The position numbers and the translations under genes are program-made. Shown here piece after piece: positions 13,627 through 36,322 of a stretch of DNA of 51,986 nt. Under the pieces are notes generated by a model. It did not search any database. It was not told where the DNA came from and worked only from the letters and a program-made list of their open reading frames with translations. The stretch is taken from assembly GCA_947169915.1 (NCBI GenBank), contig CAMVRN010000008.1:1-51986 (forward strand). The letters run 5' to 3'. The DNA comes from an uncultured Candidatus Saccharibacteria bacterium (GTDB taxonomy: Bacteria; Patescibacteriota; Saccharimonadia; Saccharimonadales; Saccharimonadaceae). Position 1 is the first letter of the stretch; the number at the start of each line of letters is the position of its first letter.

Positions 13627-14682
13627 ATGTTCATATTTGATTTTATAGACCTGATTATCGTTCGTCCAATTACCAACATCCTATTCTTCATCTATAACCT
13701 TGTTGGTGACTTTGGTCTAGCGATTATCCTCTTTGTTATCGTCGTTAAGCTCTGTATGTGGCCACTCGTAAAGCGCCAGCTTCATCAGACCAAACTCATG
13801 CGTAAGCTCCAACCAGAGTTAGCACAAATCAAGAAAAACTGTGCCGGGAACCGCCAACTCGAGTCACTTCAAACGATGGACCTATATAAAAAATATAACG
13901 TCAAGCCATTCCGCTCATTCCTATCCCTCTTAATCCAACTTCCTATGTTTATTGCGATTTTTGGGGCTATTCGCGTTATGGTTTTAGTTCCGACTTATGA
14001 TTCGAATCTGGATAAGCGAGCATATTCCTTTGTAAAACAAGACGGCTCTCATGTTAAAGAAGTAATCGATTTACAATCCAAATACTTTGAAGATAAAGAA
14101 GCCTATGATGGAATTCAAGCAGACGAATCAAAATCTGAAGACGAAAAGAACTCTGCCGAAGCTCCGACCTACGAGTTTCACCCAAGCCTCTTCGGATTTG
14201 TGAATCTCGAATCAAACCCAGGATTCAACTCAAAGAGCGCCATCTTCTCGCTTGTCTTAGCGCTTCTTGCCTGTCTCACCCAATTCTTTATCTCGAAACA
14301 ACTTCGTCCATCCGGAAAGGAAAAGAGTAAATCTTTCCGCGAGCTCATGAAAGAAGCGGGTGAAGGAAAAGAGATTGACCAAGCAGAAATCAATGATATG
14401 ACCTCCGCACAAATGGGCATGTTTATGCCTCTGATGCTCCTCTTTATCATGATTAATCTCCCAGGCGCTATTATCCTTTATTACTTCCTGTCAAACATCA
14501 TTACCTTCATCCAACAAAAAATCGTTCTCGACAAAGCAGAAAAAGAGATGGAAATCTCTGCCGATAAGGCAATTCTTAAAGAACTTAAACACATTCAGGA
14601 AGCTGAAGTGATAGAAAATAAAAAACACGGAACAAAAATAACACGAATCTCCGCAAAAGATACTAAAAAGAAAAGGAGATAA
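13627..14682 (+). CDS. yidC: Membrane protein insertase YidC
   Basis: 351 residues. It inserts and folds membrane proteins with or without SecYEG. A first hydrophobic segment (about 10-45) is followed by the cytoplasmic loop with KLMRKLQPELAQIKK, then by membrane helices near 100-120, 200-220 and 260-290. The charged tail (ADKAILKELKHIQEAE...KKKRR) is typical of ribosome-contacting YidC. A non-consensus loop of about 70 residues (about 120-190, rich in Asp/Glu/Lys) separates the second and third helices. It is one of two YidC domains in the window; the other is fused to a transferase at 27598. Confidence 0.95.
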   Translation: MFIFDFIDLIIVRPITNILFFIYNLVGDFGLAIILFVIVVKLCMWPLVKRQLHQTKLMRKLQPELAQIKKNCAGNRQLESLQTMDLYKKYNVKPFRSFLSLLIQLPMFIAIFGAIRVMVLVPTYDSNLDKRAYSFVKQDGSHVKEVIDLQSKYFEDKEAYDGIQADESKSEDEKNSAEAPTYEFHPSLFGFVNLESNPGFNSKSAIFSLVLALLACLTQFFISKQLRPSGKEKSKSFRELMKEAGEGKEIDQAEINDMTSAQMGMFMPLMLLFIMINLPGAIILYYFLSNIITFIQQKIVLDKAEKEMEISADKAILKELKHIQEAEVIENKKHGTKITRISAKDTKKKRR

Positions 14683-15196: not shown

Positions 15197-17095
15197 CTAT
15201 TCTTCATTAGTAACAGCGTTTGTTGCACTTCCTACGATAATAATGAAGTCATATCCGATAGGAGTGATGTCGTTTGGAAGGTCTTCCATATCTTTCGCTT
15301 CAACGCCATAGAATCTTTCCAATGCTTTTTTGGTTTCAGGCTTCATCCCTTCACTCGCGTCGTAAAGCTCGATATCTTCAGTATACTTATAGTCGCCTTC
15401 CGGAGCGTTTGCGATTTCTTTGACGGAATAGCCACGTTCTTCAAGTGCAGCTTTTTCTGTTGCAGCAACCCCGTCTTCGCCCGTCCCGTTATAAACGATA
15501 ATCACGGCACCTTCGCGCTGAGCAGGATTACTCTTGAGTTGCTGAGCGACATATTCCTGAATGATTCCATAATTACCAATTCCAGCAACCGGAACGATAT
15601 AAGAGATTCCGTTTTGATTGCCGAACGTCATATACTGAGTATTGTCATCCCAAAGTGGAATTTGCCTGATAGAATCAAGGTCGAAGGTCTCAAGTAGGTG
15701 CATACCAGTTTTTATCTCTGCCATAGTGAGGTTCATTCTTAAATTATCTCCGACTGCGGAAATAATCTTGACAGCCTCACTAAGGCCGAGGCCTTTTTCA
15801 ACTACTTTGTCTTTAATTCCAATTAGAATCTTTTGTTGGCTAGCGGCCCTAGAAAAGTCGCCGTATCCAGTGCCATGACGAGCGCGAGAAAGCGCGAGAG
15901 CATCATAACCGTCTATTTCATACTCAACTCCGGCTTCATAAACCGCGCCAGTATAGGCATAGTCACTGATATCCTCATCAAGAACAATAGTGACTTTACC
16001 AAGAGCGTTAATTATATCAACTAACGCACCCCAGTTCATATGAACATAATACTGGGTATCAATTCCGAGAATTTCTTTAATCTTTCCTTGCAATGCTTGC
16101 GCACCAGCATCCTCGTTATCACCATACTGATTATTACACCAATAAACTTCGTTAATCTTACTCGTAGCAGTGCATGTATAGCCGGCATACAAATCACGCG
16201 GAAGGGAAATAATTGCTACATCGCCAACCTCTTGGTCGAGACTTACGACCATAATAGAATCTGTAAGCTGAGAACCATCGTGTTCATATCCATCAAAGCC
16301 CTCACCGGCCATATCGAACCCGCTCGTTCCGAATACGAGGATATTTGTTCGCCCGTTCTCGTCAGTTTTTAACGGTTCGTATTTTTCGCTCGTTACCACT
16401 CCAATTGCGCTCCAAATATCACTTCTACCGCCGGTAATCTTCCTCAAGACTCCATCGCCCCAAAAGTATAGATAAACACCAGCACCTATTGCAAGCAAAA
16501 GAAGAAAAACCAGTATCCACTTGATAACACGACCAACTTTCGATTTCTTTTTCTTTGCTTGGTGTTTCTCCGCTTTTGCGAGACGTTTGCGCTCCAACTT
16601 CGCCTTCTTTTCACTTTCGCGAAGCTCCTTTTTTGCTTTCTTCATATCTTTAATTTCCTCGTCGTCAACATCAGAAATCGTCCCATCTTTCGTTGACTCA
16701 TTCAACTCTTCGTGTCCAAACGTCTCAACTGGAGACAAGAAATCTTCTTGCGCTTCCGTATTGTCAATTGCATCAATATCAATCTCTTCTTCGAACCTTT
16801 CACCGTCATCATAGTCATCGTCAGACGCATAAGCGGGCGCCTTAATATTTAAATCAAAAGCTTTTGGTTCAGCGGTAAAGATACGCGCCTGAGATACTCT
16901 CCTAGGAGCCCGCGTTTTTTTAATGGTCGCCTTAGAAGTCTTCCTAACAAGCGGACTGCTTTGTTCCGCTGATTTAGTTTTGTTAATAGTTGCTTTATTA
17001 GTTGACGCCTTCCTAGTTTTCGAACGCGCAACAAGCGTAGAATCCTTAGCGCTTCGAATAGGGAAGCCATCAATCGTCTTTTCTTCCTTAACCAT
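15197..17095 (-). CDS. LytR-CpsA-Psr (LCP) family wall-polymer ligase
   Basis: 632 residues. LCP enzymes move lipid-linked anionic glycopolymers onto peptidoglycan outside the cell. A long charged cytoplasmic part (1-189) with Lys/Arg-rich and Asp/Glu-rich sections precedes one membrane helix (about 190-210). The LCP domain (about 245-470) contains DSIMVVSLD and ISLPRDLY with the catalytic Arg-Asp, and RARHGTGYGDFSRAASQQ. A C-terminal LytR_C domain (about 530-630, opening 'GAVIIVYNGTGEDG') follows. With the rhamnose and export genes downstream it is the likely final step of polymer attachment. The cytoplasmic part is longer than usual. Confidence 0.9.
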   Translation of the reverse strand: MVKEEKTIDGFPIRSAKDSTLVARSKTRKASTNKATINKTKSAEQSSPLVRKTSKATIKKTRAPRRVSQARIFTAEPKAFDLNIKAPAYASDDDYDDGERFEEEIDIDAIDNTEAQEDFLSPVETFGHEELNESTKDGTISDVDDEEIKDMKKAKKELRESEKKAKLERKRLAKAEKHQAKKKKSKVGRVIKWILVFLLLLAIGAGVYLYFWGDGVLRKITGGRSDIWSAIGVVTSEKYEPLKTDENGRTNILVFGTSGFDMAGEGFDGYEHDGSQLTDSIMVVSLDQEVGDVAIISLPRDLYAGYTCTATSKINEVYWCNNQYGDNEDAGAQALQGKIKEILGIDTQYYVHMNWGALVDIINALGKVTIVLDEDISDYAYTGAVYEAGVEYEIDGYDALALSRARHGTGYGDFSRAASQQKILIGIKDKVVEKGLGLSEAVKIISAVGDNLRMNLTMAEIKTGMHLLETFDLDSIRQIPLWDDNTQYMTFGNQNGISYIVPVAGIGNYGIIQEYVAQQLKSNPAQREGAVIIVYNGTGEDGVAATEKAALEERGYSVKEIANAPEGDYKYTEDIELYDASEGMKPETKKALERFYGVEAKDMEDLPNDITPIGYDFIIIVGSATNAVTNEE

Positions 17096-18128: not shown

Positions 18129-19955
18129 ATGAAAATAAAAAGAAACACACCGCAAACTATTGTAAAAATTAGCTTCTTGTTTGCTTTTGTTGCGACTATG
18201 ACATTTCTAGGGCTAAAACTCCCAAGCGACTCCAACGCCGCATCTTTAGCAAACTTTAATCCTGGCAATATCATTTCCGATTACACTATGGGCAACTTCG
18301 ACACCATGAGCGTAGAAGAAATAGACGACTTCTTGCACGAACACGGCAACTGCAATAACACAGATACCTACATGGCATCTTGGTATCCATCTGTTCACTA
18401 TCATATCGAAGACGGACATTTTGTTTGTCTAGCAGATGAAGTATTCGCGGAAGGTGTTGAGTATGGAGACCTCATTCCAGAGGGCACTAAATCTCGCACC
18501 GCTGCACAGGTAATTTATGATACTGCCCACGAATTCGAGATTAATCCCCAAGTTCTTCTTGTTCTTCTCGAAAAAGAGCAAGGACTAATTTCTGATTCAT
18601 GGCCAAACTCTCTTCAATATCGCTCCGCTACAGGTTTCGGCTGTCCAGACACAGCCCCATGCAACGAGCTTTATTATGGCTTTGTCAACCAACTTGACAA
18701 TGCCGCCTATCTTTTCCGCACCGTCCTTAATGGGGGATGGACGAACTATCCACTTGGAAAAAACTTTATCTACTATAACCCAAACAGAGATTGTGGTGGA
18801 TCTAATGTTGTCATAGAAAACCTCGCAACTTCATCGCTTTACCGATACACTCCGTATCAACCAAACCAAGCAGCTCTTAACGCCGGCTATGGTACGGTAT
18901 CTTGTGGCGCCTATGGCAATCGCAACTTCTACCTTTTCTTCATGGACTGGTTTGGTGACCCGACTGATGAAGGGGAAAAACCAACCGAAACACAACTCGA
19001 GGCGGTCGAAAAAATCGACGCCAGATACGAAAAGCTAACCGATGCTAAAAAACTTTTGGGAAACAAGATGACTAAATATCCAAACTGTTCAATCGGGCAT
19101 GATGGCGCCTGTGTCCAAGGTTATGATAAAGGAGTCATCATTACCAGCGAATTCGGCACTTGGGAAAACTACGGAGAAATACGTAGTAGGTTTGCAAAGC
19201 TTGGCTCGGTAGATGGCGTTCTTGGCTTTCCGATTTCAAAAATCAACTGCTCAATCGGATACGACGATACTTGCGTCCAAGCCTTTGAAAACGGAGTTAT
19301 CATTCAAACAAAAGAATACGGCGCTATAGAAAACACCGGCGAAATTCGAGAGCGGTTTATTGAACTTGGCTCGGTAGATGGCGTTCTTGGCTTCCCAATC
19401 GCTACAACAAATTGCAATATCGGTCATAAAGGAGCCTGTGTTCAAGCCTTTGAAAAAGGAGTCATTATTTCAAACCCAAGCACAGGCACTTGGGAAAACT
19501 ACGGAGAAATTCGCCGCCGTTTCATCAATAACGGCTCAATTGACGGTCACTTTGGTTTCCCAATAACCGGAATTGTCTGCGATGAAGACGGCGGTTGTTA
19601 CCAAGACTTTGAAGAAAGAGCTATCTTTGAGGACTCCGAAGGAAATTATTGGATTTCCGAAGGAGAGATAGCAGACCGCTACCAAAAAGTGGATGAAATT
19701 CTAGGAAGTGCCACAGCAAACATTAATTGTAATATCAGTCACAAAGGGGCCTGCGTCCAAGCCTTCGAAAACGGCGTTATCATCTCAAGCCCAGAAACTG
19801 GCGCATGGGAATCGTACGGTGATATTCGCAAACAACACATCCTATCCGGTTCAATCGACGGGGAATTAGGCTTCCCAACATCGGGAATTATAACCGATGA
19901 AACCACAGGACAACTCATCCAAAAATTCGAAAACGGTGAACTATCAACCGATTAG
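18129..19955 (+). CDS. Secreted LGFP-repeat adhesin-like protein
   Basis: 608 residues. A signal peptide (about 1-37, ending SNAAS) precedes an N-terminal domain (about 40-285). That domain has 'NFNPGNIISDYTM' and a helical 'INPQVLLVLLEKEQGLI' segment that resembles the domain preceding LGFP or SH3 repeats in actinobacterial secreted proteins; it may have wall-hydrolase ancestry. Residues about 308-608 are six LGFP-type repeats of about 55 residues. Four carry a spaced Cys pair of the form NCxIGxxxxCVQ and another has CDEDGGC, probably disulfides. LGFP repeats are associated with the arabinogalactan-mycolate walls of Corynebacteriales. Binding to an actinobacterial host wall is my inference. 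Confidence 0.85.
   Translation: MKIKRNTPQTIVKISFLFAFVATMTFLGLKLPSDSNAASLANFNPGNIISDYTMGNFDTMSVEEIDDFLHEHGNCNNTDTYMASWYPSVHYHIEDGHFVCLADEVFAEGVEYGDLIPEGTKSRTAAQVIYDTAHEFEINPQVLLVLLEKEQGLISDSWPNSLQYRSATGFGCPDTAPCNELYYGFVNQLDNAAYLFRTVLNGGWTNYPLGKNFIYYNPNRDCGGSNVVIENLATSSLYRYTPYQPNQAALNAGYGTVSCGAYGNRNFYLFFMDWFGDPTDEGEKPTETQLEAVEKIDARYEKLTDAKKLLGNKMTKYPNCSIGHDGACVQGYDKGVIITSEFGTWENYGEIRSRFAKLGSVDGVLGFPISKINCSIGYDDTCVQAFENGVIIQTKEYGAIENTGEIRERFIELGSVDGVLGFPIATTNCNIGHKGACVQAFEKGVIISNPSTGTWENYGEIRRRFINNGSIDGHFGFPITGIVCDEDGGCYQDFEERAIFEDSEGNYWISEGEIADRYQKVDEILGSATANINCNISHKGACVQAFENGVIISSPETGAWESYGDIRKQHILSGSIDGELGFPTSGIITDETTGQLIQKFENGELSTD
19200..19393 (+). repeat. Near-identical LGFP repeat DNA units
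   Basis: A 29-base stretch opening CTTGGCTCGGTAGATGGCG occurs exactly at 19200-19228 and again at 19365-19393, 165 bases (55 codons) apart. Other LGFP units have diverged at the DNA level, so these two units look like a recent duplication or gene conversion. Confidence 0.85.
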
Positions 19956-22019: not shown

Positions 22020-24167
22020 ATGAAAGTAAATATTTATTCCCAACGACCAGAAGAAAAAAAACGCGCAACAAAAACCATTGCAGCGATTATTCCGAACTAC
22101 AATTACGCTGACTTCATTATCGAACGAATCGATTCGGTCCTTTTTCAAACCTACCCAATTTCCGAACTAGTTATCCTCGATGACGCTTCTCCAGATAATT
22201 CCGTAGAGGTTATCGAGAACAAAATTAAAGAAATCACAAAAGAATACCCAAAGATTAAAGTAAAATTTCTCAAGAACGAAAAGAATTCCGGAGGTTGCGT
22301 CTTTTCTCAGTGGCAGAAAGGACTTAAAGAGGTAGAGAGCGAATACTTTTGGATTGCCGAAGCGGACGACTCTGCTGACGCCCATTTTTTGGAGACCGCT
22401 ATGGAGAAGTTTAAGGAGAGACCAAATACCGTCCTATTCTTCTCCGACTCATACCGCATCAACCAAAAAAATGAAGTAACCAGCCACACCTGTTCTGACT
22501 GGGCAGACATGTGGAAATCTGGTCGCTACAAAAAAGACTTCTATAATTCCGGTCTAGACGAGATTAAAAACTATCTCTCAGGTACAAACCCGATTCTCAA
22601 CGTTTCCAGTGTTGTTTGGAAAAATTCTCCAGAACTCCCAAAAATATTCGAAGAAGCGAAGAAATATAAGGTCGCAGGCGATTGGTATATCTACTCCCGT
22701 GTCCTTGAAAACGGTGACATCGCTTATTCCGCCAAACAGCTCAACTATTACCGCAAACACGACAAAGGCTCCGCTTCCACTGTCGTCAAACTCAATATCG
22801 AGTACGGCGAAGTAACTACAGTTCAGAACCGCATCATCGAAAAATACAATTTAGGTCCCGAACAAATTGAATGGGCAAAAGTTCGTCGACGCGGTATGGG
22901 CTTCGTCGAAAATCCAAAGAACGTTGGGGACAAAGGGACTATCGCCTGGGTTGTTCCAGCTTTCTCAACAGGCTCTGGTGGACATCGCACAATTTTCACA
23001 AACGTGAATTATCTAATCGAACACGGCTACAGATGCGACGTTTATGTAAACGGCAATCAAGGTGAATATCCAAATGATATTTTTAAACGAATCGAGGAAG
23101 GCTATGGCGAATTCAAAGCTGACGTCTTCGCCGGTTACACGCTTGCTAAAAAATATAATATCGCAATTGCTACTGGATGGGATACAGCCGAACCAGTCGC
23201 AAACTCCGACGCGAAAAACAAACTCTACTTTATCCAGGATTTTGAGCCATACTTCTTCCCGAGAAACGGAGAAAACATTGCTGCTGAACGCTCATACTCT
23301 CTAGGTCTTCGCGGTATCACGATTGGCAAATGGCTAACCCAAAAGATTTCTAATAACTATCCAACAGAAACAAATTATTTCCATTTTTGTGCCGACCTTT
23401 CCAATTATCACAAAAACGAAGACGCAGAAAAAGAAGATGCTATCTGCTACATTTTCCAACCAGGCAAGCCACGCCGTTGCGACCAAATTGCTCTTCGCGC
23501 TCTTCAAATTGTTCAAAAACTTCGTCCAGAAACTAAGATTTACTTCTATGGTTCCGCTAAGCGTAAAGTACAAGGTCTCAAAGTCGAACATCTTGGCGAG
23601 ATCACTGTTGAAGATTGCAACAATCTCTACAACAAGTGTTCCGTTGGGCTCTGTATGTCGGCGTCAAATCCATCTCGTATTCCATTTGAGATGATGTCGG
23701 CGGGTCTCCCAGTTGTCGAATTATATCTCGACAATAATCTTTATGATTTTCCCGAAGGAGGATGCCTACTCGCCGAACCGACTCCAGAAGGCGTAGCGAC
23801 TGCACTTTTAAAGGTTTTGAATAGCAAATCCCTTCAAAAATCCATGAGCGAAGCAGGACAAAAATACATGCAAGATTACCCAATCGAGAAGGGGTATGCT
23901 GAATTCTTGGACTTCATAGAACACGTTGCAAGAAATGATATACCAAAACCAACCGGCAAGCAGAAACCAACTTACTCCGCGCCAGCTATAGCCGCGTCCA
24001 AGGAAGTCAAAGAAGTTTCCAGTAAACTTCCGCCAGCAGTTCAAGTTAATACTACTCCAACCACTAAAGAACTTATTAAAAAGGGAACTAAACTTGTTCT
24101 TAGTCGCACAAAAGGATACGCCGGACGTAAACTCCGCGCCGTCTACCATAGGATTCGTCGTCGATGA
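22020..24167 (+). CDS. Fused GT2 + WsaF-like rhamnosyltransferase
   Basis: 715 residues. Residues about 14-290 are a GT2 domain (AIIPNYNYADFIIERIDSVL, ILDDASPDNS, and EADDSAD as the DxD region). Residues about 300-640 form a GT4-type domain with 'IAWVVPAFSTGSGGHRTIF', 'KLYFIQDFEPYFFP' and 'SRIPFEMMSAGLPVVE', which resembles WsaF-type rhamnosyltransferases. A Lys/Pro-rich tail (about 645-715) ends in a basic helix that may touch the membrane. With rmlABCD 7 kb downstream it is a natural user of dTDP-rhamnose. The GT2 half is paralogous to the next gene. Confidence 0.8.
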   Translation: MKVNIYSQRPEEKKRATKTIAAIIPNYNYADFIIERIDSVLFQTYPISELVILDDASPDNSVEVIENKIKEITKEYPKIKVKFLKNEKNSGGCVFSQWQKGLKEVESEYFWIAEADDSADAHFLETAMEKFKERPNTVLFFSDSYRINQKNEVTSHTCSDWADMWKSGRYKKDFYNSGLDEIKNYLSGTNPILNVSSVVWKNSPELPKIFEEAKKYKVAGDWYIYSRVLENGDIAYSAKQLNYYRKHDKGSASTVVKLNIEYGEVTTVQNRIIEKYNLGPEQIEWAKVRRRGMGFVENPKNVGDKGTIAWVVPAFSTGSGGHRTIFTNVNYLIEHGYRCDVYVNGNQGEYPNDIFKRIEEGYGEFKADVFAGYTLAKKYNIAIATGWDTAEPVANSDAKNKLYFIQDFEPYFFPRNGENIAAERSYSLGLRGITIGKWLTQKISNNYPTETNYFHFCADLSNYHKNEDAEKEDAICYIFQPGKPRRCDQIALRALQIVQKLRPETKIYFYGSAKRKVQGLKVEHLGEITVEDCNNLYNKCSVGLCMSASNPSRIPFEMMSAGLPVVELYLDNNLYDFPEGGCLLAEPTPEGVATALLKVLNSKSLQKSMSEAGQKYMQDYPIEKGYAEFLDFIEHVARNDIPKPTGKQKPTYSAPAIAASKEVKEVSSKLPPAVQVNTTPTTKELIKKGTKLVLSRTKGYAGRKLRAVYHRIRRR

Positions 24168-25033: not shown

Positions 25034-25108
25034 TAAGGTCAGACTTTTGGATGGGCAGTAGTAACTTAACGTTTATTTTGAATTGCTTAAAGAAAGAAGG
25101 TGTTAAAA

Positions 25109-25891
25109 GTGACCGAGGCGCAGTTTAACCAGTATGTTAAAACTCTGTTAACTAACCCTAAAGACCAAGAAGCTCATGACGCACTAGAGCCCTACCGCGC
25201 GAAGCGCGCCATTTTTCTCGCTGCCGGATTTGGCAGCCGTCTCTTGCCGATTACTCGGCACACGCCCAAACCAATGGTCAAAGTTCACGGCACGCGAATC
25301 ATCGATACTTCGATTGATGCATGCCTGGCGGCCGGCATTGAAGAAATCTATGTCGTCCGCGGTCACCTTGCTGAGCATTTCGATGCTTTGCTTGAAAAAT
25401 ACCCCATGATTAGGTTCATTGAGAACCCCGACTACGATAAGGCCAATAACATTTCTTCAGCGGTGGCAGCTTGTCACCTCTTCGAGAATGCATTTGTCCT
25501 TGAAGCCGACCTTCTCGTCAAAAATCCCAAAATCATCTACCCGTATCATTATCAATCCGATGTCCTTGGCATCTGGATGGAACACTCCGACGACTGGGTA
25601 CTAGTACCCGACCAGGACGGTAACGTTGCCGAAGAAAAGGTTACGGGTGACCATTGCTACCAAATGGTAGGCATCTACTATTGGAACAAATCTGACGCCA
25701 AGAAGCTCCAGACCCATCTTGTCGATGCGTTCGATTTTACTCTCGAAGGACGTAATTTGTATTGGGAAACAGTTCCCAATCAGCTCCATCACGGCGAATA
25801 TAAGATTAAAATTCGTCCGTGTCTTGCGTCTGACGTGGTGGAAATTGATACCTTTGACGAACTCAAGGCTATAGACCCATCATATCGTTAA
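25109..25891 (+). CDS. LicC-like CTP:phosphoalcohol cytidylyltransferase
   Basis: 260 residues from the GTG at 25109; the GTG at 25100 overlaps the AGAAGG ribosome site and is less likely. The nucleotidyltransferase opening AIFLAAGFGSRLLPITRHTPKP (about residues 31-52), the NPDYDKANNISS segment and the FVLEADLLVKN metal site (about 130-140) match LicC-type enzymes that make CDP-choline or a related CDP-alcohol for wall polymers. Proline is mainly CCC here, while neighbours prefer CCA, and G+C looks higher, so recent transfer is likely. No choline kinase (LicA) or LicD follows. It is followed after 13 bases by a permease with the same codon style. Confidence 0.75.
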   Translation: MTEAQFNQYVKTLLTNPKDQEAHDALEPYRAKRAIFLAAGFGSRLLPITRHTPKPMVKVHGTRIIDTSIDACLAAGIEEIYVVRGHLAEHFDALLEKYPMIRFIENPDYDKANNISSAVAACHLFENAFVLEADLLVKNPKIIYPYHYQSDVLGIWMEHSDDWVLVPDQDGNVAEEKVTGDHCYQMVGIYYWNKSDAKKLQTHLVDAFDFTLEGRNLYWETVPNQLHHGEYKIKIRPCLASDVVEIDTFDELKAIDPSYR

Positions 25892-25904: not shown

Positions 25905-27350
25905 ATGGAACAGAAAGGATTGAAGAGACGCCTTAGCCCCACTAATGTTTGGGCTATTGCGTTCGGTTGCATCATTGGATGGGGTTCGTTCATCAACCCC
26001 GGCAAGAAGTTCTTGCCCAACTCTGGCGTTGCCGGAACCGCTATTGCTATGTTCCTCGGCGCCATCGTCATGGTCATTATTGCGCGGAGCTATGCGTACA
26101 TGGTTCCTAAATTCCCCAGGGCAGGTGGCGAATTCACATTCACTAAGAACTGCTTCGGGAAATTCGCAGCCTATGCCTGCGGTTGGTTCCTCGTTGTCGC
26201 GTACCTCACGAATGTCCCCATGAACTCCACCGCTATCGGTCTCATTGTCGACGGACTCGATGGCCCGCTTAATATTCTTAAATTTGGTTTTCATTACCAG
26301 ATTGCGGGCTTTGATGTTTGGCTTGGCGAGATTCTGTTAGCATCTGGAATTCTGATTCTCTTTGGCTATCTCAACATCATTGGCGTAGAAAAAGCCGGTT
26401 TTGTGCAGACTATTCTCGCAACACTTTTGGCTGTTTGCGCCGGCACTCTCTGTATTGCTGGTCTCGTTTCTGCCAAAGCACAGGGAATCAACATGGCGCC
26501 CATTTGGGGTTTCGACAAAGCCGCTGCGATTGCTGCAGGTGCAACCACTGAAAATATCGGAGAGTTTGCACACGTCGGCACTTCCGGGGTAATGTCAGCC
26601 ATCCTGGCCACCTTTGCCATTGCGCCGTGGGCATTTGTCGGATTCGACACTATCCCCCAGGCCGCAGAAGAGTTTAAGTTCTCTTACAAGAAAGTCATGA
26701 CCATCCTAGTTGTTGCCATCGCGTTTGGTTGCTTCGTGTATATTTCCAACAACACCGTTGCTGCTGCCGCTCTGACTAACTGGCCTGACCGCGTTATGGC
26801 TGGCGATTGGGTTCTGCTCATCGCCGCAGAAGAACTGCTCGGGAACTTTGGTAAAATCCTGATTGGTGTTGGTGTATCCTGTGCCGTCCTCTCTGGCATT
26901 ATGGGATTCTATCTTGCGTCTTCACGCTTGATGTATTCCATGAGCCAAGATGGATTCCTGCCTCCTTGGTTTGGTAAAATCGACGCCCGTCACGGCACGC
27001 CCAAGAACGCCATGATTTTCTGCGTTATCGTCTCGCTGTCTGGACCGATTCTTGGCCGTGAGGCTCTTGGCTGGTTCGTCGACATGTCCGCAATCGGTGC
27101 TTCAATTGGTTATTTTGCCACTTGTACCGCCACCTTGAAGACGATGCGTCGCGACCATGACGGCACGCCAGGGCTCAAAATCTTGGCAATCGCTGGCGTA
27201 ATTTTCTCACTAATCTTCATGATTCTTCAGCTCATCCCGATTCCGGGACTCTCCGGAGTTCACTTCGGAAACGAGAGCTATATCATGCTGGTTATCTGGC
27301 TCGCCATCGGAGCCGTCTTCTACTTCAAACAGCGTAAAGCTTTCAAGTAA
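25905..27350 (+). CDS. APC superfamily permease
   Basis: 481 residues, with AAGGAGG 10 bases upstream. About 12 membrane helices begin at FGCIIGWGSFINPGKKFLPN, which carries the APC helix-1 unwound glycine motif. The FAIAPWAFVGFDTIPQAAEEF region (about helix 6) is also typical. The family moves amino acids, amines or choline/ethanolamine-like compounds with cations. Pairing with the cytidylyltransferase suggests supply of its alcohol or amine precursor; this is inference. The bias to CCC and GGC codons is shared with its partner and marks the pair as a transferred unit. Confidence 0.88.
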   Translation: MEQKGLKRRLSPTNVWAIAFGCIIGWGSFINPGKKFLPNSGVAGTAIAMFLGAIVMVIIARSYAYMVPKFPRAGGEFTFTKNCFGKFAAYACGWFLVVAYLTNVPMNSTAIGLIVDGLDGPLNILKFGFHYQIAGFDVWLGEILLASGILILFGYLNIIGVEKAGFVQTILATLLAVCAGTLCIAGLVSAKAQGINMAPIWGFDKAAAIAAGATTENIGEFAHVGTSGVMSAILATFAIAPWAFVGFDTIPQAAEEFKFSYKKVMTILVVAIAFGCFVYISNNTVAAAALTNWPDRVMAGDWVLLIAAEELLGNFGKILIGVGVSCAVLSGIMGFYLASSRLMYSMSQDGFLPPWFGKIDARHGTPKNAMIFCVIVSLSGPILGREALGWFVDMSAIGASIGYFATCTATLKTMRRDHDGTPGLKILAIAGVIFSLIFMILQLIPIPGLSGVHFGNESYIMLVIWLAIGAVFYFKQRKAFK

Positions 27351-27395: not shown

Positions 27396-27605
27396 CTATT
27401 TTTTCTTCTTTACAGTTATTTCGTCAGATTCGACCTCTTTATTCCTATTCTCATCGATATTCAGTTTCTTGGAAACTTTTTTCTTTGCTTTGCGGTAATA
27501 TAGGCCGACGAAAGCACCGACCGCAATTAAGATGCCGGCACCAGCACTAATTGCGTAAGAAATAACTGATGGATCAATATAGCCAAAGATGACTAAGCTA
27601 TGCAT
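27396..27605 (-). CDS. Small single-pass membrane protein
   Basis: 69 residues. A helix (about 13-35) follows a 'FGYIDPSV' opening; the rest is a highly charged Lys/Glu tail. It has an AAAGGAAG ribosome site and overlaps the end of the YidC-TagF gene by 8 bases, so it is the last gene of that operon. It is probably an accessory or assembly factor of the fusion protein. I know no name for it. Confidence 0.72.
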   Translation of the reverse strand: MHSLVIFGYIDPSVISYAISAGAGILIAVGAFVGLYYRKAKKKVSKKLNIDENRNKEVESDEITVKKKK

Positions 27606-29511
27606 TTTTCTTCCTTTCTTTTATTTGCTCTTGCACAGTTTTAATAATATATTCAGCTCCCACCTCGCCGCTTTTACCTATATTATAAACCGTTTCGTCG
27701 CGAAATTCACTAATCTGCTTTGCATACTTCTTTGGATTTTTTAACATCTTCTCAACAATTTTATCGAGGTTCTTTAAATCCTTAATCTTCACTACTTCGC
27801 CAATCTTTTCGCGTCCCCAGATATTCACTGGTGGAACATCCACTTCTTTATACTTTGGGTTCATTATCTTCATTGGAGTGTCGATAGAAATGACTGGCTT
27901 CTCGGTAGTAAACGCATATTCAAAACCAATGCTTGACCAGTCTCCAATCAGTATATCCGCCTCGAACACCGAACTTGTATTGGAAAAATCAGTTTGAATC
28001 TCAATATTAGTTCCAGCATATTTTTCTTTCATCTTTTCAAACGCCTCACGCATGTGACGCACTTGTTGCGGGTGCGGGCGCACAATCACGTTATAATCTT
28101 TTCCTTCAAGCGCTTTTAGTACTTTATCTAAACACAAGTCGATGATATTGTCTTTCTGCCAGCTCGGCGCAATCATTACAGTCTTTCGTTTGCTTGGCTT
28201 CTTATTCTTGATAGATTTTTTGTAATCCCGAAGCATATCGTCAAGAAGGGAATATCCCCAATCAACAATCTCTTGGTTCTTTAGCCCGTAGTATCGTTTT
28301 ATTCCTTCGCATTCTTCGCGTTGACAAGTAGTTGCAGCAAGGATTACGTCATAATGATTCATCGATTCCTCACGCATCGTCATGTTTAGGCTGTCGATAC
28401 AGTGTGGAACATAGATATATTTAATATCCTTTCGTAAATAACTTCGTTTAATATGGAAGTTTTCAATATCCGGCATGGTCATAACAACCACATCCGCATC
28501 CATCTTCATCATGAGCGTGATAAGCTTCTTCTCTTCAATGTAATACGGCCTCAATTTCTTTTGCTCCTTAGCAATCTCAAAAACTTGGTCGTTATAGTCG
28601 CTCGTCACATAATGAATTGTTAAATTCGTATTTTCAAGAATATATTCAATCATTCCTTTGTAGTATTTATAAAAACCACTGCTCTCGGAATAAAAGACCA
28701 ATTTCTTATTTGCCACATGGAAGAATTCTTTATAATCGGCACGCTCCTTACGAATTTGCTCAACGCTTCGCTTTTTATTTTTGTTCAGAGTCTCTAGCTC
28801 TCTTAGTTCTTTTCGTGATTTTTCCAGCCGCTCATAATCAACGTGTTTCTTCGGGTTAATCGCCTTATTAAGAAGCCATTGTTGTAGAATTGCCATGAGA
28901 TTAGAAGCTGTCCAATAAAGCGCAACGCCAGCCGTTACGAACGTACCAAGATAAACAGAAAGACCAACCGAAAAGATTGACATCCCCCATTTGTTCCATT
29001 TGGACTGTTCAGCTTGAAGTACATTCATCACATTTTGTCCGATACAAAGCGCAAGCGCGCCGAGACCAGCAATAACAGGAATGAGCCATGCAATCCCGCC
29101 ATTTTCAACAGCTACCCATCTAAGGTCGAATCCCAAGAAACCAAAATCGATATCAGAAATACCAAGATATAGCTCAGGATTTTTCACAATCTCAACAACG
29201 CCGAGAAGCAAAATGATTTGTAAAATTAACGGGACGAGGGAGGCAAGTGCATTGTACTTATACTTTTTATAAATCTTTGTTTGTTCTTCGGCAATCGTAT
29301 CTTTGTCACCGAAATATTTCGTTTTCAGCTCGTTAATTTCCGGTTGCATTTTTACCATCTTAATAGAGTTCTTTTGAACCCAAATAGAGATTGGAAGAAG
29401 AATCAATTTACTAACGAGCGTGAAGAGAATAATTGCAACGCCCCAATTAGGAATTAATCCGTAAAGCAATTTCATGATAAACCCGAAGGCTATCCCAATA
29501 TAATACATCAT
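27598..29511 (-). CDS. YidC domain fused to TagF-like glycerophosphotransferase
   Basis: 637 residues. Residues about 1-225 are a YidC/Oxa1 insertase domain: helices around 20-40, the cytoplasmic KNSIKMVKMQPEINELKTKY hairpin, and helices near 90-110, 140-160 and 180-215. A charged linker (about 230-270) joins a CDP-glycerol:polyol glycerophosphotransferase domain (about 285-630). Its motifs include YVPHCIDSLNM, a TVMIAPSWQ strand, VIVRPHPQQ (catalytic His region) and IGDWSSIGFEYAF, all typical of TagB/TagF. Such enzymes build or prime teichoic-acid-like phosphodiester chains from CDP-glycerol. The fusion puts a membrane-insertase fold on a polymerase that normally only touches the membrane. 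It shares an ATGA junction with the upstream sulfatase-like gene. Confidence 0.88.
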   Translation of the reverse strand: MMYYIGIAFGFIMKLLYGLIPNWGVAIILFTLVSKLILLPISIWVQKNSIKMVKMQPEINELKTKYFGDKDTIAEEQTKIYKKYKYNALASLVPLILQIILLLGVVEIVKNPELYLGISDIDFGFLGFDLRWVAVENGGIAWLIPVIAGLGALALCIGQNVMNVLQAEQSKWNKWGMSIFSVGLSVYLGTFVTAGVALYWTASNLMAILQQWLLNKAINPKKHVDYERLEKSRKELRELETLNKNKKRSVEQIRKERADYKEFFHVANKKLVFYSESSGFYKYYKGMIEYILENTNLTIHYVTSDYNDQVFEIAKEQKKLRPYYIEEKKLITLMMKMDADVVVMTMPDIENFHIKRSYLRKDIKYIYVPHCIDSLNMTMREESMNHYDVILAATTCQREECEGIKRYYGLKNQEIVDWGYSLLDDMLRDYKKSIKNKKPSKRKTVMIAPSWQKDNIIDLCLDKVLKALEGKDYNVIVRPHPQQVRHMREAFEKMKEKYAGTNIEIQTDFSNTSSVFEADILIGDWSSIGFEYAFTTEKPVISIDTPMKIMNPKYKEVDVPPVNIWGREKIGEVVKIKDLKNLDKIVEKMLKNPKKYAKQISEFRDETVYNIGKSGEVGAEYIIKTVQEQIKERKKNA

Positions 29512-31291: not shown

Positions 31292-32179
31292 ATGAAAGGA
31301 ATTATTTTAGCCGGCGGTTCTGGCACTCGCCTCTACCCATTGACATTAGCCACCTCGAAGCAGATGCTTCCAGTTTACGACAAGCCAATGATTTACTACC
31401 CATTATCAACTCTTATGCTCGCAGGTATTCGAGATATACTTGTTATCTCAACCCCAGCCGATTTGCCAAACTTTGAAAGACTTCTTGGCGACGGCTCTCG
31501 CTTCGGAATTCATCTTAGCTATAAAGTTCAACCGTCTCCAGACGGGCTCGCTCAAGCATTCATTCTCGGCGAAGAATTTATCGGCGATGATGCCTGCGCT
31601 ATGATTCTTGGAGATAATATTTTCTATGGTGAAGGCTTTACGAATTCTCTTAAGACCGCCGTTGAAAAAGCCGAAAACTCTTCTCGTGCCACCGTCTTCG
31701 GCTATTACGTCAATGACCCAGAAAGATTTGGCGTTGTAGAGTTCGATGAAAATTGGCACGCAGTTTCTATTGAAGAAAAACCAGCAGTTCCGAAATCCAA
31801 CTACGCAGTTACAGGCCTGTATTTTTATCCAGCTGGCGTTTCTGAAAAAGCTAAAGTCGTCGAACCATCTGCTCGTGGCGAACTCGAAATTACCACTCTC
31901 AACGAGTTCTATCTAAGAGACGACGCGCTAGATGTTCAGCTCCTCGGTCGTGGCTTTGCCTGGTTAGACACGGGCACAATGGATTCACTTGCTGACGCAT
32001 CCGACTTTGTCCGCGTCATTCAGAAACGTCAAGGCATTCAAATTTCCGCTCCTGAAGAGATAGCATTTCGTAACTCCTGGATTTCTAAAGAACAACTCGA
32101 AGAATCCGCAACAAAATATGGCAAGTCTACATATGGCCAACACCTAAAGAATGTAGCAGAGGGGAAGATTAAAGATTAA
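31292..32179 (+). CDS. rmlA: Glucose-1-phosphate thymidylyltransferase
   Basis: 295 residues, the normal RmlA size. It makes dTDP-glucose, the first step of dTDP-L-rhamnose synthesis. The signature [22 protein letters not shown] (start) with [18 protein letters not shown] is unmistakable, and [10 protein letters not shown] (about 107-116) and WLDTGT follow. It heads the tight rmlA-rmlC-rmlB-rmlD operon. Confidence 0.97.
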
Positions 32180-32748
32180 TGGCACTTACCTTTGAAAAAA
32201 CAGACATCAAAGATGTCTATATCATCACCCCAAAAGTCTTTGGAGACGAACGTGGTTATTTCATGGAAACCTACTCTGCAAAAGACTTTGAGGCTGAAGG
32301 ACTTCATTATAACTTCGTTCAAGACAATCAGTCTTCAAGCACGAAAGGCGTTCTTCGTGGACTTCACTTTCAAAAAACTTTTCCGCAGGCCAAGCTTGTT
32401 CGTGTACTAAAAGGAGAAGTTTACGATGTCGCCGTTGACCTCCGTAAAGATTCCGCAACTTACGGCAAATACGTTGGAGTTTTGCTATCCGGCGAGAACA
32501 AAAAGCAACTTCTAATACCAAAAGGGTTCGCTCACGGCTTCCTAGTCGTATCCGACACTGCCGAATTTGCTTATAAATGCGACGACTTTTACCACCCAGA
32601 AGATGAAGGCGGGCTGCCATTTGACGATTCGTCTATCAACATCAAGTGGCCAGAAATCGACGTGCCCTACAAACTTAGCGATAAGGACCAAAAACACCTT
32701 CCGCTAAGCGAATCCAAAATCGTTTTTGAGTTAAAAGGAGAACAATAA
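32179..32748 (+). CDS. rmlC: dTDP-4-dehydrorhamnose 3,5-epimerase
   Basis: 189 residues, a full-length cupin. GDERGYFMETY and QDNQSSSTKGVLRGLHFQ (catalytic His) are the family's hallmarks, with LLIPKGFAHGFLV further on. It starts in a TAATG overlap with rmlA. It converts the 4-keto sugar made by RmlB to the L-configuration. Confidence 0.97.
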   Translation: MALTFEKTDIKDVYIITPKVFGDERGYFMETYSAKDFEAEGLHYNFVQDNQSSSTKGVLRGLHFQKTFPQAKLVRVLKGEVYDVAVDLRKDSATYGKYVGVLLSGENKKQLLIPKGFAHGFLVVSDTAEFAYKCDDFYHPEDEGGLPFDDSSINIKWPEIDVPYKLSDKDQKHLPLSESKIVFELKGEQ

Positions 32749-33774
32749 ATGGAAAAAACTGTTGTCGTAACCGGTGGTGCTGGCTTTATTGGTAGTAACT
32801 TTGTTTACTACATGCTAAACAAATATCCAACGTATAAAATTATCTGTATTGACTGTTTAACTTATGCGGGGAACCTATCAACGCTCAAGGAAGCTCTAGA
32901 AAACCCAAATTTTCGCTTTGAAAAACTTAACATCTGTGACCGCGAGAGAATTAAGAAACTATTCGAAGAAGTTAAGCCAGACATTGTAGTAAACTTTGCC
33001 GCAGAATCACACGTCGACCGTTCAATCAAAACCCCAGGCATCTTTGTCGAAACAAACATCGAAGGTACTCAAGCTCTTATGGACGTTTGTCGAGAGCTAA
33101 ACATTCCACGTTACCACCAAGTTTCAACCGACGAAGTGTATGGCGACCTACCGCTTGACCGCCCAGACCTCTTCTTCACCGAAACTACGCCAATTCACGC
33201 TTCGTCTCCCTACTCTGCCTCCAAAGCTGGCGCAGATTTGCTTGTCCTCGCCTACTGCCGCACTTACGGTTTTCCTGCTACTATCTCTCGTTGCTCCAAC
33301 AACTACGGCCCATATCATTTTCCAGAAAAACTGATTCCATTAATGATTATCAACGCTCTTGCTGATAAATCTTTGCCTGTCTATGGCGACGGCTTGAACG
33401 TTCGTGACTGGCTCTACGTCGAAGACCACTGTAAAGCGATTGATTTAATAATTCACGATGGAAAAATCGGCGAAGTATATAATGTTGGTGGTCACAATGA
33501 GATGGCGAACATCGATATCGTTAAACTCATACTAAAGAAACTTGATAAGCCAGAATCACTCATTACTTTCGTCGAAGACCGCAAAGGGCATGACCGTCGC
33601 TATGCTATCGACCCAACTAAAATTCACAAAGAGCTTGGTTGGTTGCCAGATACAAAATTCGCTGACGGTATCGAGAAGACTATCGATTGGTATCTAAATC
33701 ACAAAGATTGGTGGGAAGAAATCATTTCAGGCGAATACAAAACTTACTACGAAAAAATGTACGGAGGAAAATAA
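32749..33774 (+). CDS. rmlB: dTDP-glucose 4,6-dehydratase
   Basis: 341 residues. A short-chain dehydrogenase-type fold has the NAD motif GGAGFIGSNF (about 8-17), the STDEVYGDL loop and the YSASKAG catalytic Tyr/Lys. It has an AAAGGAG ribosome site and abuts rmlC. Confidence 0.97.
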   Translation: MEKTVVVTGGAGFIGSNFVYYMLNKYPTYKIICIDCLTYAGNLSTLKEALENPNFRFEKLNICDRERIKKLFEEVKPDIVVNFAAESHVDRSIKTPGIFVETNIEGTQALMDVCRELNIPRYHQVSTDEVYGDLPLDRPDLFFTETTPIHASSPYSASKAGADLLVLAYCRTYGFPATISRCSNNYGPYHFPEKLIPLMIINALADKSLPVYGDGLNVRDWLYVEDHCKAIDLIIHDGKIGEVYNVGGHNEMANIDIVKLILKKLDKPESLITFVEDRKGHDRRYAIDPTKIHKELGWLPDTKFADGIEKTIDWYLNHKDWWEEIISGEYKTYYEKMYGGK

Positions 33775-34664
33775 TGAAAGTATTTGTCACAGGCGTTTCG
33801 GGACAACTCGGTCGCGACGTGATGCTAGAACTAGAAAAACGGGGAATCGAAGCAATCGGTTCCGACCGTTCTGGCGACGGAAAAGGCGAGTTCAAAGTTG
33901 TATCTCTCGACATTACGGACCGCGAAGGCGTGGAGAGGACTCTCTCCGAAATAAAACCAGATGCTATTGTTCATTGTGCCGCATGGACCAACGTCGATGG
34001 AGCTGAAGACGAAAAAATGAAACCAATCGTCAAAAAAGTGAACGTTGACGGAACACAAAACATTGCCGATATGGCCAAAGAACTCGGTGCAAAAATGGTC
34101 TACATCTCCACAGATTACGTGTTCAACGGTAAGGGAACTGAACCTTGGCAACCTGACGACAAGAGTTATGCGCCACAGAACTATTACGGGGAAACAAAAC
34201 TTGGTGGCGAACTTGCAGTTTCAAACACTATCGATAAATACTTCATTGTTCGTATCGCTTGGGTATTCGGGAAAAATGGCAAGAATTTCGTAGACACTAT
34301 GCTTCGCGTTGGCGCCGAACATGACGAAGTTCGTGTCGTAGATGACCAGATTGGCACTCCGACCTATTGCCCAGACCTTGCCAGACTTCTTGTCGATATG
34401 ATTGAGACCGAAAAATACGGTTATTATCATGCGACGAACGAAGGCGGATATATCTCTTGGGCTGATTTTACCAAAGAAATCTTTAAACAAGCGGGCATCA
34501 AGTCTAAAGTTGTCCCCGTCACTACGGAAGAATATGGTGTCTCTATCGCTGCTCGCCCAAAGAATTCAAGGCTCGATAAGTCCAAGCTCACCGAAAACGG
34601 CTTCGCACTACTACCAACATGGCAGGACGCTCTTAGTCGTTATCTCGCCTCTCGCGAATCATAA
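33774..34664 (+). CDS. rmlD: dTDP-4-dehydrorhamnose reductase
   Basis: 296 residues from the ATG at 33774, which overlaps the rmlB stop (TAATG) and has GGAGG upstream; the longer in-frame start at 33687 lies within rmlB and is rejected. Motifs are GVSGQLGRDV (NADPH loop), HCAAWTNVDGAE, STDYVFNG and YYGETKLGGE (Tyr-Lys). It completes dTDP-L-rhamnose. Confidence 0.96.
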   Translation: MKVFVTGVSGQLGRDVMLELEKRGIEAIGSDRSGDGKGEFKVVSLDITDREGVERTLSEIKPDAIVHCAAWTNVDGAEDEKMKPIVKKVNVDGTQNIADMAKELGAKMVYISTDYVFNGKGTEPWQPDDKSYAPQNYYGETKLGGELAVSNTIDKYFIVRIAWVFGKNGKNFVDTMLRVGAEHDEVRVVDDQIGTPTYCPDLARLLVDMIETEKYGYYHATNEGGYISWADFTKEIFKQAGIKSKVVPVTTEEYGVSIAARPKNSRLDKSKLTENGFALLPTWQDALSRYLASRES

Positions 34665-34672
34665 TCTTGTTT

Positions 34673-34697
34673 AAAAAATCCCCCTTCATGGGGGGTT
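34673..34697 (-). terminator. Terminator of TagGH operon
   Basis: On the minus strand a CCCCC(C)/GGGGG stem with an ATGAA-type loop begins at the stop of the ATPase gene and runs into ATTTTTTT. On the plus strand the T tract is poor, so it serves rmlD only weakly. Confidence 0.8.
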
Positions 34698-35478
34698 ATT
34701 TGAACAGGCTCATATACTTTTCAGCGACTTCGCTCGGGTCACCTTCAGCAGCGATTTTGCCATCTTCAATCATAATTGCTCTATCACAGAATCTTCTTAC
34801 ATTCTCCATCGAGTGAGTAACGAGAATAATAGTCTGTTTCTTTTCTTTAAGTGAGGCAAAGTAGTTATTGCACTTTTGTTGGAAGGCTGCGTCTCCAACT
34901 GCAAGCACTTCATCAAGAACCAAGATATCACCCTTAGCACGAATCGCAATCGAGAACGCTAAACGCACCAGCATACCACTCGAATAATTCTTCAATTTCT
35001 GGTCCTGGAATTTTTCTAGTTCTGCAAACTTCCAAATATCGTCATACATCTCATCCATCTCTTTATTAGAAAAGCCAAGAAGCGCACCGTTGAGATAAAC
35101 GTTTTCTCGTCCAGTCAATTCTGGATTAAAACCAACACCAAGTTCAATAAATGGCACGAGGTTTCCGTTTACTATGATTGTTGAATCTTTCTCTGGGTAG
35201 TAAATCCCAGCCAAGATTTTGAGGAGTGTTGATTTTCCACTTCCGTTACGCCCCACGATTCCGAGAAACTCACCTTGTTTAACCGTAAAATTCAGCCCCT
35301 TAAGAACCTTCTGGTCCTTATATCCCTTAATACCTCTCAGGCGGTTAAAGATTGCTTGCTTTAGTCCCCAACTTCGCTCAGTAGGAAGACGGAATGACTT
35401 ATGAAGATTATGAACTTCGATAGCATTCTCGTTTTCCGGGCTATTAATCAGAATACGTTTTCCAATTTCGCGACGCAT
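34696..35478 (-). CDS. tagH: Polysaccharide/teichoic-acid ABC exporter ATPase
   Basis: 260 residues. Walker A is GRNGSGKSTLLKIL (about 76-89), the ABC signature is YSSGMLVRLAFSI and Walker B is ILVLDEVLAVGD. The N-terminal 'NLHKSFRLPTERSWGLKQAIFNRL' and the 'VPFIELGVGFNPELTGRENVYLNG' insert are typical of TagH/Wzt/RfbE-type exporters, not of general importers. There is no C-terminal sugar-binding (Wzt-C) domain. It is coupled by TAATG to the permease gene. Confidence 0.93.
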   Translation of the reverse strand: MRREIGKRILINSPENENAIEVHNLHKSFRLPTERSWGLKQAIFNRLRGIKGYKDQKVLKGLNFTVKQGEFLGIVGRNGSGKSTLLKILAGIYYPEKDSTIIVNGNLVPFIELGVGFNPELTGRENVYLNGALLGFSNKEMDEMYDDIWKFAELEKFQDQKLKNYSSGMLVRLAFSIAIRAKGDILVLDEVLAVGDAAFQQKCNNYFASLKEKKQTIILVTHSMENVRRFCDRAIMIEDGKIAAEGDPSEVAEKYMSLFK

Positions 35479-36290
35479 TAGATTTCCTCCGCAAAGAACT
35501 TAGATTTTCTTCGGAAATAAATCGAACCAACAATCAGGATGATTACAACAATTACAATTGGGATTGCCATAACTATAGGATTATTGAAGAAGTTCCACGT
35601 TGTTGTGGCTTCTGTGGTAATCAAACTATATCTAACATCTTGAATTGCCTGAGCAATTGGATTTAAAAGAATAATCTTTGCAGCCAACATGCTTGAGTTT
35701 GCGACCATTGTGACCGGATAAATAATCGGCACCGCATAGAACAAGGCCTGAATGCAAACATCCCAAATCGACATGACATCGCGGTATTTAACGTTAATAG
35801 CACCAAGCAAGAAGGCAATACCGAGCGAGAGCGCATAGAGCTCAAAAATAAATACCGGAACCATTAGCCACGACAAACTAGGTTGAACCCCATTTATCAA
35901 AGCGAAGATAACTACCACACCAAGGTTAATGGCAAGGTTAATTAACGCTGTAAATGTTGTAGAAACTACAACAATATATTTAGGGAAAGAAATCTTACGA
36001 ATTAAATCTCCGCGAGCCAACATCGCTTGGATGCCTTGACTCGTACATTCCGTGAAGAAGCTCCAAAGAACTGTACCAGTCAAAAGATAAACTGGATAGT
36101 GAGGAATATCATTCCCGAGCCGGAGAAGCTTAGCGAATACTATATAGAGAATCGCGAACATCATTAACGGACGAAGAAGCGCCCATAAATAACCCAAAAC
36201 GGAACCTTGATACCTAAGCTTGAAGTCCGTTTTCGTCAATTCTCTGAGGAGAACACGATTCTTTTTATTTAGAACTTTTGGGATACCCAT
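35478..36290 (-). CDS. tagG: Polysaccharide/teichoic-acid ABC exporter permease
   Basis: 270 residues from the ATG at 36290. About six helices in the ABC-2 layout follow 'RELTKTDFKLRYQGSVLGYLW', a strong TagG/RfbD/Wzm signature. An ATG 6 codons upstream (36308) lies inside an extended -10 (TGATAGAAT, 36299-36307), so the later ATG fits the leaderless pattern. With TagH it should move a lipid-linked polymer across the membrane. Confidence 0.9.
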   Translation of the reverse strand: MGIPKVLNKKNRVLLRELTKTDFKLRYQGSVLGYLWALLRPLMMFAILYIVFAKLLRLGNDIPHYPVYLLTGTVLWSFFTECTSQGIQAMLARGDLIRKISFPKYIVVVSTTFTALINLAINLGVVVIFALINGVQPSLSWLMVPVFIFELYALSLGIAFLLGAINVKYRDVMSIWDVCIQALFYAVPIIYPVTMVANSSMLAAKIILLNPIAQAIQDVRYSLITTEATTTWNFFNNPIVMAIPIVIVVIILIVGSIYFRRKSKFFAEEI

Positions 36291-36298
36291 ATCTTTAT

Positions 36299-36307
36299 AT
36301 TCTATCA
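36299..36307 (-). promoter_or_regulatory. Extended -10 promoter of exporter operon
   Basis: TGATAGAAT on the minus strand, 8 bases before the ATG at 36290. It decides the start of the permease gene. Confidence 0.5.
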
Positions 36308-36322
36308 TAAATAAATCTAATG

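Follow-up and report, generated by a model that had tools for sequence, protein, structure and literature searches.

The window, a 51,986-nt stretch of DNA from a rumen-type Saccharibacterium, contains a conserved three-gene unit that looks like a machine decorating the cell surface across the membrane and that was apparently acquired from gut Firmicutes. Its central gene joins a YidC/Oxa1 domain and a TagF-like phosphotransferase domain in one chain. A sulfatase-fold membrane protein is encoded upstream and a small unannotated membrane protein, the YIDPS protein, downstream, both in overlapping frames on the same strand.

Features of the window that bear on the three-gene unit (positions are those of the window)
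Feature	Position	Strand	Basis and remarks
Housekeeping yidC, in rnpA-yidC-jag cluster	13627..14682	+	PF02096; Saccharibacterial clade in tree
LicC-like nucleotidyltransferase, candidate maker of a CDP-linked donor	25100..25891	+	PF00483/PF12804
Amino-acid/amine permease	25905..27350	+	PF13520; 13 nt past the LicC-like gene
YIDPS small membrane protein, 69 aa, unannotated	27396..27605	-	Downstream of the fusion; overlaps its 3' end by 8 nt
YidC-TagF fusion, 637 aa	27598..29511	-	Single uninterrupted ORF; 79-row alignment A1; AF2 model
TagF-like CDP-alcohol phosphotransferase domain, GT-B fold, predicted cytosolic	27868..28710	-	PF04464; 3l7i, 8va1; H370 and H480
YidC/Oxa1 domain, five membrane helices	28864..29445	-	PF02096; fold match to 3wo7 and E. 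coli YidC 6al2
Sulfatase-fold membrane phosphotransferase, LtaS/SccH-like, 551 aa	29508..31163	-	PF00884; upstream of the fusion, 4-nt overlap
dTDP-rhamnose genes RmlA, C, B, D; likely glycan context	31292..34664	+	RmlD by PF04321; RmlA/B/C by sequence reading
TagGH-type polysaccharide ABC exporter	34696..36308	-	PF00005, PF01061

A preliminary description of this DNA had proposed that a single 637-residue gene combines YidC with a glycerophosphotransferase-family domain, and both families were matched in the one chain: PF02096 (60KD_IMP) at residues 23-216 (E = 3.6e-33; 115 bits against a cut-off of 35) and PF04464 (Glyphos_transf) at residues 268-547 (E = 1.6e-14; 54 bits against a cut-off of 22.1). 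That description had missed the genes flanking the fusion, among them the one for the 69-aa protein. The concern that YidC might not be found in residues 1-225 was not borne out, as Pfam, NCBIfam TIGR03592 (also above its cut-off) and the fold all locate it within residues 1-226. Neither a frameshift nor an assembly error accounts for the join, since the ORF is uninterrupted and the identical join occurs at 80 other loci from many separate assemblies; the alignment of the fusion has 79 rows and a mean column identity of 61%. The stand-alone yidC that had been described at 13627 is indeed there. Apart from it and the fusion, the assembly (770 kb, 96% complete) has no PF02096 gene, and the fusion is also its sole PF04464 gene. 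This assembly is a draft in 12 contigs, which is what could be said for a chimeric assembly or binning contamination. We consider such an artefact practically negligible, because the same join was seen at the 80 further loci and because the housekeeping copy, which groups with Saccharibacteria, is located ~13 kb from the fusion on the same contig; the two genes share a contig in a second Saccharibacterial genome (G116) as well.

The AlphaFold2 model of the fusion, built with 79 relatives, has a mean pLDDT of 91.7 and a pTM of 0.75. In a fold search it matched S. epidermidis TagF (3l7i; Z 21.5, 344 residues aligned, 4.9 Å) and S. aureus TarL (8va1; Z 20.3), while residues 1-226 matched B. halodurans YidC (3wo7; Z 18.9, 201 of 225 residues, 2.9 Å) and likewise E. 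coli YidC. The fold search thus found relatives of the TagF half, for which phmmer with that half alone gave no convincing PDB relative by sequence. The YidC fold with its known topology, together with the helices that follow it, would place the TagF domain in the cytosol, at the inner face of the membrane. In the TagF half, all 79 rows share H370, H480 (motif RPHPQ), D524, W525 and S526, and we infer from the motif, rather than from a residue-level superposition, that H370 and H480 correspond to the catalytic histidines of TagF. In the YidC half, T31, P40, Q98, N160, N163, Q166, S185, Y199, W200 and N204 are invariant among 54 fusions compared. The position of the groove arginine in the first core helix is Lys in 53 of these 54; this says little, as housekeeping copies can also have Lys there (Arg 7, Lys 5, Asn 2 and Tyr 1 among the rows compared).

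The sulfatase-fold partner is the sole PF00884 member of the genome. Among 42 relatives, D208, H389, H394, D446 and H447 are invariant, the DH metal motif is present in all, and the nucleophile position T245 is Thr in 39 and Ser in 3. With Thr or Ser at this position throughout and the metal residues D208, D446 and H447 unchanged, the partner reads as expected of a phosphotransferase of the LtaS/EptA type and not of a cysteine sulfatase. In the AF2 model of a longer chain from locus L056, which is described below, membrane helices precede the sulfatase-type ectodomain, whose fold resembles PbgA/YejM, MCR-1 and sulfatases in the fold search. The partner was found within the fetched flanks at 61 of 81 loci, about a quarter showing none. 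At locus L016 the flank lacks it, yet the genome (G158) has one ~20 kb away; in the genome of locus L078, BLAST found no sulfatase partner.

The YIDPS protein has no match to a Pfam family. Its relatives share the motif YIDPSVMTYAIQAxAGxxIAxGA, one membrane span and then a basic followed by an acidic tail. Between the window and L016 the gene differs by 8, 6 and 31 substitutions at codon positions 1, 2 and 3 over 52 codons, a pattern like that of coding sequence. The module is present at 80 of the 81 loci, within 400 nt of the fusion in 76. Most Bacillota YIDPS proteins begin with a signal peptide-like stretch that ends ahead of YIDPS, and 26-27 Bacillota loci carry a signal peptidase I gene near the fusion and the YIDPS gene (for example L075:2014-2502 and L151:4718-5317). 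The Saccharibacterial proteins are without this start and the Saccharibacterial loci without this gene.

Relatives of the fusion number at least 178 in the genome collection, and we fetched 80 of them, all full-length or nearly so except one ended by its contig edge (L077). They come from 14 Saccharibacteria, with 64-76% identity to the window copy, and from 66 mostly gut Bacillota, with 46-60% identity. The spread is patchy: the fusion occurs in 2 of 151 genomes sampled from the window's own family and in 4 of 100 sampled from the family to which the Lachnospiraceae genome with locus L057 belongs. Separate trees of the two domains, which the preliminary description had suggested as a check, agree with each other. 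The 14 Saccharibacterial rows form one clade in the YidC and TagF trees (99/100 and 100/100), and this clade is nested within a Bacillota group in both (95/99 and 97/99). The YidC tree also unites all fusions in a single clade (98/100) apart from the housekeeping YidC of both phyla, and the window's own housekeeping yidC falls in the Saccharibacterial clade. These results support a transfer, from Bacillota into Saccharibacteria, of the gene in its fused state; the direction of transfer rests on the nesting, in trees drawn with midpoint roots. The TagF tree leaves a single or a multiple origin of the fusion undecided, because the stand-alone relatives form very long branches. Of the earlier suggestion of fusions in Actinobacteria and an exchange with hosts, horizontal acquisition is supported, but the relatives found are from Bacillota and not from Actinobacteria, in a search that was non-exhaustive for the latter. 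Neither PLSDB (tblastn, 1e-20) nor the viral contigs gave a match that would point to spread of the unit by plasmids or viruses. The GC content of the operon (0.387 against 0.427 for the window) was set aside as evidence for transfer, other stretches being equally low.

The modules of the unit are also found joined in other ways. At L056 and L057, sulfatase, YidC and TagF domains form one chain of 1180-1192 aa, and at 13 loci, mostly from Erysipelotrichaceae, the sulfatase carries YIDPS at its N-terminus. Two further genomes contain a divergent sister system (L148:1169-4966, G151:C47, and L149:3578-7622, G181:C24), in which a YIDPG-TagF-like chain lies beside a YidC-sulfatase chain; the sulfatase domain of the latter scores just below its cut-off in L149. 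With the fusion-family profile the TagF domain of the sister system scored 168 bits, compared with 16-42 for other stand-alone PF04464 proteins. At L148 a further YidC-like ORF follows, its end lying off the contig. As the four modules (YIDPS, sulfatase, YidC and TagF) are joined in at least five different ways in single chains, their arrangement argues strongly that the proteins would form one physical complex. A chance neighbourhood is ruled out by the near-constant presence of YIDPS and by the repeated fusions. The model of the three-domain chain from L056 (pLDDT 86.1, pTM 0.57) recovered each fold, with a relative placement that is untrustworthy. The order sulfatase-YidC-TagF fits the membrane without extra spans, with the ectodomain outside, then YidC, and TagF inside.

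The neighbouring genes suggest what might be transferred. A cytidylyltransferase-type gene is near the fusion at 39 of 52 loci with long flanks, LicC-like in 33 and of the TagD family in 16 (some of these fused to PEP mutase), and 10 of the 52 have aminoethylphosphonate genes (PEP mutase, phosphonopyruvate decarboxylase, PhnW/AepZ); these are raw counts, not enrichments over a background rate. That aminoethylphosphonate is activated with CMP before it is used on the cell surface is known from a study that does not mention YidC or TagF (PMC6697681). In the 96%-complete genome analysed here, neither PF01467 (TagD-type cytidylyltransferase) nor PF01633 (choline kinase) was detected, which makes the LicC-like gene and the adjacent permease the best candidates for donor supply. 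A homologue of the permease is also found near the fusion in Erysipelotrichaceae (L079 and L150). We suspect that the head group, X, differs among organisms and is probably the product of the LicC-type enzyme in this one. The preliminary description had called the enzyme a glycerophosphotransferase, which is too specific: PF01467 was not detected, the candidate CDP-maker nearby is LicC-like, and other loci make aminoethylphosphonate. As to the acceptor, dTDP-rhamnose genes lie beside the operon both here and in L150 (RmlA/B), making a rhamnose-containing wall polymer a plausible candidate. Homologues of the TagGH-type exporter are near the fusion at 13 of 81 loci.

Several other genes were noted in these regions. 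LicC-like nucleotidyltransferases are fused to a CobD/HisC-like PLP enzyme in L008:8091-9923, L150:3125-4933 and others; such chains could possibly convert phosphoserine to phosphoethanolamine and then make CDP-ethanolamine. Near another Saccharibacterial fusion, L013:11649-12548 encodes a LicD protein whose best NCBIfam match, below cut-off, is the diacylglycerol cholinephosphotransferase Mf1. The window itself encodes a glycopolymer transferase of the LCP family next to rnpA-yidC-jag (632 aa; 15197-17095), a 608-aa protein with LGFP repeats (18129-19955; PF08310, three matched stretches), and a chain that combines a GT2 glycosyltransferase with a WsaF-type (rhamnosyltransferase-like) C-terminal half (22020-24167). 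The LGFP repeat is a surface-protein repeat known from Actinobacteria.

The preliminary description had suggested that the insertase fold could serve as a membrane platform, present the acceptor or help to move the polymer. With a sulfatase-fold partner predicted outside and a transferase domain predicted inside, a role of the YidC domain in moving something across the membrane becomes more likely. We tentatively favour, at somewhat less than an even chance, a transmembrane relay by which the operon would add a phospho- or phosphono-head group to a surface glycan. The neighbouring cytidylyltransferase would make CDP-X in the cytosol, and the TagF domain, for which the fold and the invariant His are observed, would move X-phosphate from CDP-X to a presumed lipid acceptor in the inner leaflet. 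The polar head would then cross to the outer leaflet through the hydrophilic groove of the YidC domain as a dedicated scramblase, an activity suggested by a published study in which E. coli YidC, like every Oxa1-family member tested, scrambled lipids in vitro (PMC10491306). Outside, the sulfatase-fold enzyme with its Thr nucleophile and metal site may pass X-phosphate on from the lipid to a glycan outside the cytoplasm, in parallel to LtaS and SccH, which act with phosphatidylglycerol; SccH transfers glycerol phosphate from this lipid to the wall rhamnan (PMC11754754). The YIDPS protein, whose co-occurrence and fusions are observed, could be the constant single-span subunit of the complex. The relay is favoured by the single chains of L056 and L057, the sister system and the YIDPS-sulfatase fusions; by the frequencies of YIDPS, sulfatase, cytidylyltransferase-type and aminoethylphosphonate genes; by the fusion and the sulfatase each being the only member of its Pfam family in the genome; and by the nucleophile, DH motif and PbgA/YejM-, MCR-1- and sulfatase-like fold of the partner. 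Against it count the loci without a sulfatase and the genome of L078, as well as the uncertain domain placement in the three-domain model. In addition, TagF/TarL-type enzymes are known to act on hydroxyls of glycans or polyols and not on simple lipids, and the TagGH exporters would allow a purely cytosolic decoration ahead of export.

There is one main and serious rival, which we consider somewhat unlikely. Here YidC would be a mere platform, the cytosolic target of X-phosphate transfer by TagF would be a glycan on a lipid carrier, which the groove might hold and which TagGH or a Wzx-type exporter would then move, and the sulfatase-fold enzyme would add a separate second decoration from phosphatidylglycerol. 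TagF enzymes are known to work in this manner, TagGH genes are present in the window and near other fusions, and the YidC fold with the helices after it puts TagF at the inner membrane face. A mere platform, however, would need no conservation of the full five-span fold, in which T31, P40, Q98, N160, N163, Q166, S185 and N204 are invariant, and it leaves the sulfatase-YidC-TagF and YidC-sulfatase chains unexplained. The YidC domain might instead be a dedicated insertase or chaperone that inserts or assembles YIDPS and the sulfatase-fold partner, thereby tying the machine's assembly to its own enzyme. YIDPS, a tiny single-span protein encoded beside the fusion at nearly every locus, is of the classic type of YidC substrate, and the signal peptide-like starts in Bacillota, with signal peptidase I often adjacent (about 27 of 81 loci), would suit such a role. 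This reading is nevertheless improbable, as the YidC domain is kept where YIDPS is part of the sulfatase or, in the sister system, of TagF and is thus no free substrate, and as most carrier genomes checked have a housekeeping yidC. It is more improbable still that the fusion is a classic teichoic-acid polymerase, in which a TagF tethered to the membrane would use CDP-glycerol to build poly(glycerol phosphate). The PF04464 match, the TagF fold and a TagD-like gene directly downstream of the fusion at Saccharibacterial locus L016 would fit, whereas this genome has no detected PF01467 gene, most loci carry LicC-type, PEP-mutase-linked or other cytidylyltransferases instead, and the stand-alone PF04464 proteins of the same genomes diverge strongly from the family, as their scores beside that of the sister system indicate.

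Returning to the relay, its fullest form is that a YidC fold was repurposed as a dedicated lipid scramblase within a four-module machine that takes head groups of the phospho or phosphono type out of the cytosol and onto surface glycans, a phosphate counterpart of transmembrane glycosylation systems, and that was passed from gut Bacillota to Saccharibacteria of the same community. We regard this combined claim as possible, though doubtful. If true, an insertase fold would have been given a job beyond protein insertion, and the lipid scrambling of YidC/Oxa1 proteins would gain a defined physiological substrate and partner enzymes. The unit would be a candidate for the missing membrane-crossing step in the decoration of Gram-positive wall polymers, including that with aminoethylphosphonate, and an unannotated conserved small protein would receive a name. 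Ultra-small Saccharibacteria would have gained a surface-decoration unit of Firmicute type, with relevance to how they attach to hosts and how phages or the immune system recognise them.

Our literature search, YidC papers included, found no published description of the fusion or the unit. What appears new is the domain combination, the small YIDPS protein and the use of an insertase fold in a unit that would decorate glycans, while the family of each domain is known. With YidC/Oxa1 insertases the fusion shares the five-span fold, the C1 hairpin and the hydrophilic groove positions; it differs in its separate clade, the TagF domain at its C-terminus and the housekeeping YidC alongside, and the Lys in place of the groove Arg, itself seen in some housekeeping copies, may be a further difference. 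TagF/TarL polymerases (PF04464; 3l7i, 8va1) have the GT-B fold and two invariant His in common with the fusion, but they are monotopic and YidC-free, and the donor in this organism is probably not CDP-glycerol. SccH/GacH and LtaS resemble the partner gene in their membrane spans, sulfatase-fold ectodomain, Thr nucleophile position and metal Asp-His, and the rhamnose-polysaccharide context of SccH/GacH is paralleled in the window; in contrast, their donor is phosphatidylglycerol, and they work without a dedicated CDP-dependent partner or a YidC domain. Dlt D-alanylation similarly has small partners and a membrane protein that passes an activated group across, with no shared protein family. The nearest known kind is the three-component transmembrane glycosylation system, such as CsbB-GtcA-YfhO (PMC8035078), where the same proposed logic applies: a lipid is loaded in the cytosol, crosses, and serves an outside transferase that acts on a wall polymer. 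The likeness is one of logic only. Those systems use C55-P sugars, a GtrA/Wzx flippase and a GT-C transferase, which are not the conserved partners of this unit; here CDP-X, a YidC fold and a sulfatase-fold transferase would take their places, partly in one chain and with the YIDPS module beside them.
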